Below are positions 14,879-16,930 of a DNA stretch of 35,580 nt, in pieces. Positions within the stretch are counted from its first letter, which is position 1; every line of letters starts with the position of its first letter. The notes under the pieces were generated by a model. That model saw nothing but the letters and a program-made list of their open reading frames with translations, ran no database searches and had not been told where the DNA came from. The translations under genes and the position numbers were made by a program. Source of the stretch: Actinomycetota bacterium (lineage in GTDB: Bacteria; Actinomycetota; Thermoleophilia; Gaiellales; Gaiellaceae); contig VAYM01000142.1 in assembly GCA_005884945.1 (NCBI GenBank), positions 1 to 35,580 on the forward strand, in the 5' to 3' direction.

Positions 14879-15435
14879 CTGCGCTCCAGGAAGTTTCGCG
14901 CGATCTCGCGGCCGAGTGGCGTGAGGACGGATTCCGGGTGGAACTGCACGCCGTCAACCGGCAGCTCGCGGTGCCGGACGGCCATCACCTCGCCGTCGTC
15001 CGCCCGTGCCGAGACTTCGAGCTCGGCGGGCACCTCCCTCGCGGCGAGCGAGTGATAGCGGCCGACCTCGAGGTCGGCCGGCAGGCCGGCGAAGAGCCCG
15101 CGCCCGTCGTGCCGGACGCTGCATGCCTTGCCGTGGACGAGCTCGCGCGCCGGCCCGACCGCTCCGCCGAAGACCTCGACGATCGCCTGATGTCCGAGGC
15201 ACACCCCGAGCGTCGGCGTCGTGGACGCGAGTCGCTCCACGATCGCCTTCGTCGCGCCCGCGTCGCGCGGGAGGCCGGGACCGGGGGAGACGACGAGCTG
15301 AGCAGGTGCGAGTCGCTCCGCCTCCTCGGCGTCGATCCCGTCGTTGCGGCGGACGACGACCTCTGCGCCCAGCTCGCCGAAGAGGTGCGCGAGGTTGTAC
15401 GTGAACGAGTCGTAGTTGTCGATGAGGAGGATCAT
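14875..15435 (-). CDS. trpG: Anthranilate synthase component II (glutamine amidotransferase)
   Basis: MILLIDNYDSFTYNLAHLFGELGAEV, SPGPGLPRDAG, GVCLGHQAIVEVFGG, VQFHPESVLT. Confidence 0.95.
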   Translation of the reverse strand: MILLIDNYDSFTYNLAHLFGELGAEVVVRRNDGIDAEEAERLAPAQLVVSPGPGLPRDAGATKAIVERLASTTPTLGVCLGHQAIVEVFGGAVGPARELVHGKACSVRHDGRGLFAGLPADLEVGRYHSLAAREVPAELEVSARADDGEVMAVRHRELPVDGVQFHPESVLTPLGREIARNFLERR

Positions 15436-16763
15436 CGTCCTTCCTTCTCCGCGAGCTCGATCGCCGCTTCCACCGCCGCGAGCTTGCGCAGGCACTCCTC
15501 GTGCTCGGCGGCGGGATCGGAGTCGGCGACGATGCCCGCGCCCGCCTGGAGATGCGCGACGCCGTCGACGAGCACGATCGTCCTGATCGCGATGCACGTG
15601 TCGAGACTTCCTTGTGGCGGGTCGGTTGATGGTTCGAACGTGTCGGCCGGTCGGTTCAGACGGACGCGCGGATGAACCGCGCGCCCTGAGGGCGGTGCCG
15701 CGAGCGGCGCCGCGGGGATCGCGTAGCCGACGGCACCCGCATATGGCCCGCGCCGCCGCCCTTCGAGCTCCGAGATGATCTGCATCGCTCGCACCTTCGG
15801 CGCGCCGGACACCGTCCCCGCGGGGAAGCACGCGCGCAGCAGGTCGAAATGCGCGACCCCGTCGCGGAGCTCGCCGTCGACCTGCGAGACGAGGTGCGTC
15901 ACGTGCGAGTAGCGCTCCGGCTCGCGGAACCGCTCGACGCGCACCGTTCCCGGCAGGCAGACGCGCGAGAGATCGTTGCGACCGAGATCGACGAGCATCA
16001 CGTGCTCGGCTCGGTCCTTGTCCGACGTGAGCAGACGTTCCGCATCCCCGTCGCCTCGCTCCGTCGTCCCCGCGATCGGATTGAGGCTCGCGCGGCGACC
16101 GTCCGCTTTGACGAGCGTTTCCGGGGACGATCCGACCAGCGCGATCCCGTCGAGCTCGAGCAGGAAGAGGTAGGGCGACGGGTTCACGCGACGCAGTGCG
16201 CGGTAGAGCTCGAGCGCGGAGGCCGGCGTCGGCCGTTCCGCGCGCTGCGAGACGACGATCTGGAACGCGTCACCCGCGCGGATGTGCTCCTGCGCGCGCC
16301 GGACGTTCTGCTCGTACGTCTCGCGGTCCGGAAACCGCTGCGTCCCGGCGGCTGCTCCGCTGCCGCGCGGGATCGGCGGCTCCGGCGACTCGAGCGCGCG
16401 CGCGACGTCGGCGGGATCGCCGCACACGACCTCCGCGGTGCCGAGCGCGTGGTCGAAGCGCACGAGCGTGTCGGCGACGAGGAACCGGCTCTCCGGCAGC
16501 CCAGATCCATCGGCGGGGAGCTGAACCGTCGGCTCGAGCGTCGCCGCGTAGTCGTACGCGAGGTAGCCCACGACGGGTGCGCCGCACGCTTCCGCTTCGT
16601 CGAACGAGCAGAGGCGCGTCCCGCACCCGACGAACGAGTGTCGTCCGAGCCGCCCGCGCTCCACCGACTCGAGCAGGAACGCGGCGCGCGCCATCGAGCG
16701 AAGCCGGAGGTACGCCCCGAGCGGAGTGATGAGGTCGGTCGCGATGTCTCTCGTTGCGTGCAT
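15432..16763 (-). CDS. trpE: Anthranilate synthase component I carrying an in-frame insertion
   Basis: NPSPYLFLLELDGIALVGSSPETLVK, NPIAGTTERG, LVDLGRNDLSRV, ACFPAGTVSGAPKVRAMQIISELEGRRRGPYAGAVGY, DTCIAIRTI, QAGAGIVADSDP. Confidence 0.94.
   Translation of the reverse strand: MHATRDIATDLITPLGAYLRLRSMARAAFLLESVERGRLGRHSFVGCGTRLCSFDEAEACGAPVVGYLAYDYAATLEPTVQLPADGSGLPESRFLVADTLVRFDHALGTAEVVCGDPADVARALESPEPPIPRGSGAAAGTQRFPDRETYEQNVRRAQEHIRAGDAFQIVVSQRAERPTPASALELYRALRRVNPSPYLFLLELDGIALVGSSPETLVKADGRRASLNPIAGTTERGDGDAERLLTSDKDRAEHVMLVDLGRNDLSRVCLPGTVRVERFREPERYSHVTHLVSQVDGELRDGVAHFDLLRACFPAGTVSGAPKVRAMQIISELEGRRRGPYAGAVGYAIPAAPLAAPPSGRAVHPRVRLNRPADTFEPSTDPPQGSLDTCIAIRTIVLVDGVAHLQAGAGIVADSDPAAEHEECLRKLAAVEAAIELAEKEGR
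15606..15722 (-). other. 39-codon in-frame, hairpin-rich insert inside trpE
   Basis: Encodes AIPAAPLAAPPSGRAVHPRVRLNRPADTFEPSTDPPQGS between GAVGY and LDTCIAIRT, a junction normally spanned by about 6 residues; three adjacent short hairpins at 15665-15683, 15682-15694 and 15697-15708. Confidence 0.7.
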
Positions 16764-16767
16764 GGTC

Positions 16768-16795
16768 AGACGAAACGACCTCCAGTCGGAGGTCG
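16768..16795 (-). terminator. trp attenuator hairpin
   Basis: Minus strand CGACCTCC-gact-GGAGGTCG followed by TTTCGTCT, between trpL and trpE. Confidence 0.8.
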
Positions 16796-16824
16796 GGACG
16801 AGCGGAGCGGGCTGTGCGCCAGAG

Positions 16825-16893
16825 TCAGTCCCGGCGCAGGCTCCCGCCCCGCTCGCAGCGCCAGGACCACCAGGTGCGAGTGGCGGGAGTCAT
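16825..16893 (-). CDS. trpL: trp operon leader peptide MTPATRTWWSWRCERGGSLRRD
   Basis: 22-codon ORF with Trp codons 8, 9 and 11, between a good promoter and an attenuator hairpin upstream of trpE. Confidence 0.82.
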   Translation of the reverse strand: MTPATRTWWSWRCERGGSLRRD

Positions 16894-16901
16894 CGGCCCT
16901 C

Positions 16902-16930
16902 AGGGTAGGCGCAGCGCCGGGCGAGGTCAA
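16902..16930 (-). promoter_or_regulatory. trp operon promoter
   Basis: TTGACC, 17-nt spacer, TACCCT; -10 ends 8 nt before the trpL ATG. Confidence 0.75.

Follow-up and report, generated by a model that had tools for sequence, protein, structure and literature searches.

A probable tryptophan-sensing attenuator upstream of trpE in Gaiellaceae, with a predicted antiterminator helix abutting the terminator

The trpE locus and its leader

The stretch of DNA analysed here (the window) is a contig of 35,580 nucleotides from the 2.86 Mb genome, in 198 contigs, of an uncultured soil member of the Gaiellaceae. A trpE gene lies on its minus strand with trpD and a trpC/trpF fusion recognised downstream, and it is preceded by a promoter, a short ORF containing three Trp codons and an intrinsic terminator (Table 1). 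The promoter spacer from TTGACC to TACCCT is 17 nt. The leader ORF reads ATG ACT CCC GCC ACT CGC ACC TGG TGG TCC TGG in codons 1-11 and CGC TGC GAG CGG GGC GGG AGC CTG CGC CGG GAC TGA in codons 12-22 and the stop. These elements had been described in an earlier note made from the letters of the window, and the promoter, the ORF, the terminator and the tail were recovered at exactly the positions given there; the terminator scan returned a single site, exactly the described one, where shuffles expect 0.2.

Table 1. Features of the trpE leader in the window (minus-strand features; numbering of the forward strand)
Feature	Position	Strand	Basis or remark
-35 box TTGACC of the leader promoter	16925..16930	-	read from sequence
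-10 box TACCCT	16902..16907	-	8 nt 5' of leader start codon
Leader ORF MTPATRTWWSWRCERGGSLRRD-stop, 22 aa, 3 Trp codons	16825..16893	-	sequence and relatives; ATG at 16893, 22 sense codons, stop TGA 16827-16825
Putative regulatory Trp codons TGG TGG TCC TGG	16861..16872	-	sequence and spacing in relatives; TGG at 16872-16870, 16869-16867 and 16863-16861
Segment 1, 5' arm of P0: CTCCCGCC of codons 2-4, plus CGC	16876..16889	-	
Segment 2, shared arm GCGAGCGGGGCGGGAG	16841..16856	-	partner segment 1 or segment 3; 16852-16841 pairs in P0, 16856-16843 in P1
Segment 3, 3' arm of P1 CCCGCTCCGCTCGT, 3' of leader stop codon	16798..16811	-	
Inner helix of P1, leader stop codon in loop	16815..16838	-	predicted fold
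Intrinsic terminator stem-loop T, CGACCTCC-GACT-GGAGGTCG	16776..16795	-	terminator scan; starts 2 nt past P1
U-rich tail of terminator TTTCGTCT	16768..16775	-	sequence
trpE, putatively controlled gene	15432..16763	-	NCBIfam TrpE-family match, E 1e-120; ATG at 16763, 4 nt past terminator tail

The TIGR00564 score of the trpE ORF is 404, under the cut-off of that model, and an insertion in TrpE is probably the reason for this low score. The insertion comprises about 33 residues in frame between GAVGYA and LDTCIAIRT (15606-15722, minus strand) and is missing from close relatives. Its DNA is a palindromic repeat with nine more copies in the genome (76-84% identity over 71-84 bp), some of which sit within open frames, and it recalls the Rickettsia palindromic elements; one relative (L002) carries another insertion at the same site of TrpE. 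The trpE gene was detected in 55 of 61 genomes searched, and the named relatives of the protein come mostly from metagenome-assembled Thermoleophilia and other Actinomycetota, including Gaiella sp. FR_16 and Ca. Gaiellasilicea maunaloa, which makes a placement in the order Gaiellales likely.

Conservation of the leader and of two helices predicted to be exclusive

Upstream regions of trpE were compared in 28 genomes, and nearly all contain a Trp-rich leader that follows the pattern MTPATxxWAWRxERGGS. These regions were used to build a covariance model, R1, which matches the genome of the window itself at E = 1.2e-18. With a threshold of E <= 0.01, R1 also matches 84 of the family's 103 genomes, a count that takes in a few genomes with a trpS leader only or with a doubtful match, such as G084, where the match is weak and no leader is visible. 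Among the family genomes with a completeness of >=90% and a contamination of <=5%, 33 of 35 are matched. The leader was aligned from 78 loci, in 77 of which the start is readable; all 77 possess a Trp-rich leader ORF. The gene that follows is trpE in 75 cases (74 assigned automatically and L099 on reading), a truncated trpE in one (L109) and trpS in one (L125). In L109 (G015:C122) the leader is intact and trpE ends after its first ~20 residues (TDVLTPLGAYP), either as a remnant or through an assembly error. The leader is thus more than a chance arrangement of letters, and the W-rich short ORF and the hairpin noticed in the window are conserved across the family.

The promoter is equally constant in its position. 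A TAnnnT box lies 6-10 nt before the leader start codon (ATG or GTG) in 77/77 leaders, and most of them have TTGACC, TTGACG or a TTG-containing variant at a spacing of 15-18 nt. In Streptomyces, the distance from the -10 box to the transcription start site has a mean of 6.3 nt and a range of 4-9 nt (PMC8079986). Given this spacing, the position of the -10 box places the start of transcription at or next to the start codon, and the leader mRNA is probably leaderless, as judged from promoter spacing.

Two helices are predicted to compete for one segment at the end of the leader ORF (segment 2). In the first, P0, the 5' end of the leader (codons 2-4 and often more) is complementary to segment 2. 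The statistics for P0, which are to be read as strong support and not as probabilities since the species permutation ignores relatedness, are a mean duplex energy of -21.1 kcal/mol over the 77 leaders versus -16.5 after synonymous recoding (Wilcoxon p 5e-13) and -17.6 in shuffles, and -19.26 (sd 0.25) when partners were permuted between species, with 0 of 5000 permutations reaching the observed value. In 71/77 leaders, the 5' end has its best partner at segment 2 or immediately beside it.

In the second helix, P1, the end of the leader ORF, GAGCGGRGCGGG, is paired with the region past the stop codon, CCCGTTCCGCTC, over 12-14 bp (14 bp in the window). In nearly all relatives, the first pair of P1 lies 9 nt past the beginning of the cluster's final TGG. 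Covariation was scored on two alignments: A2 was fitted to R1 and comprises related species, which inflates its counts, and A1 was made with MAFFT independently of R1. Double-sided changes were found in 7 of 12 pairs of P1 on A2 and in 4 of 12 on A1. The terminator stem on A2 has four such pairs, and P1 and the terminator together have 11 of 16 with 94.4% of cells pairing on A2, compared with 7 pairs and 94.8% on A1, for which RNAalifold was also run. None of 500 shuffles of A2 reached any of five measures, and sliding A2 by one column lowered pairing to about 50%. An inner helix of P1 is predicted in the window and in many relatives, with lower conservation. In two leaders (L111 and L117) a frame shift makes ERGGS into SGAGAC while the RNA GAGCGGGGCGGGAGC is kept, and L099 is similar; the conservation of segment 2 therefore resides in the RNA.

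P1 stands directly against the terminator. Measured in the stalled-state fold of 67 relatives, the gap between them was 0-5 nt, and in 28 of these it was 0; P1 and the terminator have no common bases in the family in these folds, and both coexist. The tail of the terminator in relatives is mostly TTTTTGTTT. At the level of sequence and predicted fold, the Trp codons, the promoter spacing, P0, P1, the terminator and its adjacency to P1 are all borne out by this comparison of leaders.

Related leaders and known attenuators

A second leader is found directly upstream of trpS in the same genome (G000:C121:7767-7850, L070; R1 E 8e-5), and trpS leaders occur in this genome and 14 others. All 15 possess a close promoter, Trp codons and a P1-like helix; a terminator with a U run follows in four, a hairpin with no U run in three and neither in eight. 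L070 itself has P1 and lacks an intrinsic terminator. For a trpS switch of this kind, Rho or translation are candidate effectors. In many other relatives, trpS has no such leader. In this genome, moreover, the sequence ahead of trpS is similar to the proximal leaderless promoter seen in relatives. In G020:C370, a trpS match lies ~570 bases 3' of trpE on the same strand, and the two genes possibly form one operon.

Across 398 genomes of the phylum, only four R1 matches fall outside the order. One (G295) is a leader of trpE, and the other three (L264, L265 and L266, from other actinobacterial families) are leaders of acetolactate-synthase genes. These three, in unrelated sequence, contain a run of Val codons, an 8-bp P1 that begins 9 nt past the end of this run and a terminator that follows P1 by 5 nt, so that helix and terminator abut with no overlap; they appear to match R1 by layout and not by provable homology. 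In another family of the order, trpE leaders with WWW (L214 and L217-L225) follow the same plan in unrelated letters (CCCGGGCGGGATC / GATCC...CGCCCGGG). The best partner of their 5' end again lies just past the Trp codons, in different letters, and in some of them this pairing is no stronger than in shuffles. Their P1 overlaps the terminator by ~3 nt.

Among characterised systems, S. lividans trpL1 and trpL2 are leaderless leader ORFs with Trp codons before trpE and trpS, respectively, each with two hairpins (PMC8079986); they resemble the present leaders in occurring at both genes, and the S. lividans trpS copy has no U stretch. In Streptomyces-like leaders fetched by means of the S. lividans peptide, 6-7 nt separate the -10 box from the ATG. 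The trp attenuators of Streptomyces and Corynebacterium comprise a leader peptide with a run of UGG codons, an antiterminator and a GC-rich terminator with a U tract (Seliverstov et al. 2005; PMC1262725). In Streptomyces, the sequence that follows the Trp codons, CCGGCGGCC, complements the 5' arm of the terminator, GGCCGCC, and thus overlaps it (PMC1262725), whereas here P1 abuts the terminator with no common bases. In the Streptomyces and Corynebacterium attenuators, the antiterminator has complementary triples gGCC-rGCy-GGCC in common with the terminator (PMC1262725); such triples were not seen in the present leaders. The leaderless trpL of Sinorhizobium meliloti (rnTrpL), which starts at its ATG and attenuates trpE(G), belongs to another phylum and differs in sequence, and mutually exclusive antiterminator and terminator structures are described for it (PMC7298713). 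An Rfam scan of the window gave no match; RF00513 (trp_leader), whose biological role is the same, stayed below its gathering score. Among the papers searched, none described trp attenuation in Thermoleophilia or Gaiella.

By its Trp-codon ORF, its intrinsic terminator and its predicted exclusive, ribosome-dependent helices, the leader would belong to the trpL kind in the broad sense. As modelled, it departs from the classical 1:2, 2:3, 3:4 form in that antiterminator and terminator have no common segment. P0 corresponds to the protector helix 1:2 of that form, with segment 1 lying in the start-codon region and not at the Trp codons. The principle is textbook knowledge, but the hairpins here abut instead of overlapping.

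Ribosome states, a proposed mechanism and its alternatives

Folding was carried out for defined ribosome states, in which masking of the RNA extended 12 nt beyond the A site, an assumed footprint limit. In nascent RNA before segment 3 emerges, P0 predominates with a median of 12 pairs. In free full-length RNA, the mean for P1 is 0.79. Under this footprint, it is 0.87 when a ribosome occupies the first Trp codon, 0.57 when it occupies the last and 0 when it has reached the stop codon. Because both require segment 2, P0 and P1 are mutually exclusive, and P1 is predicted to be permitted at the first Trp codon and excluded at the stop. The terminator folds in every state, with or without P1, and has 7-8 pairs downstream of P1; its lower mean over four fixed columns reflects alignment shifts in some rows. 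The search for mutually exclusive structures that the earlier note had proposed therefore yielded a switch between P0 and P1, while P1 and the terminator can coexist.

On this basis, the leader quite probably attenuates transcription of the trpE operon in a tryptophan-sensing, ribosome-mediated manner, acting on a probably leaderless mRNA through a P0/P1 switch and the adjacency of P1 to the terminator. When tryptophan is scarce, the ribosome would stall at the Trp codons, covering segment 1 and leaving segment 2 free; P1 could then form right against the terminator stem and antagonise it, and trpE would be transcribed. When tryptophan is plentiful, the ribosome would reach the stop codon and mask segment 2, so that P1 would be barred and the terminator would act. 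In an untranslated leader, P0 would be the first helix to form and would retain segment 2; since P1 is predicted in free RNA, low expression in this state would need kinetic trapping in P0. Ribosome-stalling attenuation is well supported by comparison of the leaders, and the predicted sign of regulation, in which a stalled ribosome gives P1 and completed translation excludes it, is right for a biosynthetic operon.

How P1 would act on the terminator is a separate matter. The terminator has no base-pairing rival, so any effect of P1 on it would have to come from proximity; as the terminator forms in all states, a block by P1 has no thermodynamic support and would follow from the adjacency and the sign of regulation. 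The P1 stem may stop the terminator from completing its final pairs while it is still inside the RNA exit channel, or P1 may fold away ~60 nt and thereby bring the stalled ribosome up against the terminator. An effect of proximity is favoured by the consistently short gap, by the overlap of no more than ~3 nt in the second family of the order and by the Val-codon leaders, in which P1 and terminator likewise do not overlap. We infer tentatively, at rather less than even chances, that the antiterminator disables the terminator by such crowding and never by competition for bases, either through P1 alone or with a stalled ribosome behind it.

The earlier note had proposed trp attenuation upstream of trpE, which agrees with the conserved Trp ORF, terminator and promoter, in the form of a textbook four-segment attenuator whose antiterminator, CGGGAC (16833-16828) with GTCCCG (16799-16794), would share its 3' arm with the terminator. 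The two motifs are indeed complementary in their letters, the trp attenuators of Streptomyces and Corynebacterium overlap in this manner (PMC1262725), the fetched Streptomyces leaders show such complementarity, and the second family of the order has its ~3-nt overlap. However, the proposed pairing has zero probability in every state folded and is absent from the closest relative (L003), P1 and the terminator have no bases in common in the family, and the upstream partners of the terminator arms are no better than chance (-9.1 versus -8.8 and -9.6 versus -10.1 in shuffles); a four-segment attenuator is accordingly improbable at this locus. A greater role of Rho or of RNA polymerase pausing, with P0 and P1 acting mainly through these and the intrinsic terminator being secondary, is unlikely as well. 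It would accommodate the eight trpS leaders out of 15, the one in this genome among them, that have Trp codons and P1 with no adjoining terminator hairpin, the C-rich RNA downstream in these leaders, and S. lividans trpL2, in which two hairpins precede trpS with no U stretch (PMC8079986), but the terminator before trpE is conserved and always lies within a few nucleotides of P1.

The GGAGG in the 3' arm of the terminator-like hairpin is the only Shine-Dalgarno-like sequence in the window and in several relatives, ~14-15 nt before the trpE ATG, which would fit a translational attenuation in which the hairpin hides the ribosome-binding site of trpE and stalling frees it. Against this stand the conserved U-rich tail, the separate GGAGG near the trpE ATG in several relatives (L004, L005) and a spacing that is long for such a site, and the mechanism is judged very improbable. 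The high conservation of ERGGS in the peptide could also suggest that the peptide, while nascent, causes arrest as TnaC does, with this motif as its active part. This explanation was rejected, its likelihood being slight, on the frame-shifted leaders L111 and L117 (and the similar L099), in which the peptide motif changes and the RNA does not; moreover, the trpS leaders of one genus stop at ER, and pairing in P0 and P1 explains the conservation of ERGGS. Ribosome-mediated transcription attenuation through P0 and P1 is thus the preferred reading.

Under this attenuation mechanism, the trpS copy, which has the switch and no terminator, offers a natural test of P1 acting by itself. A model of the R1 type could be used to annotate the leader, as Rfam has no match to it. 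The likeness of the Val-codon acetolactate-synthase leaders suggests that the abutting layout may be a general design. If this layout works as proposed, overlap with the terminator is no requirement for an attenuator, and abutting leaders would escape searches that insist on it.
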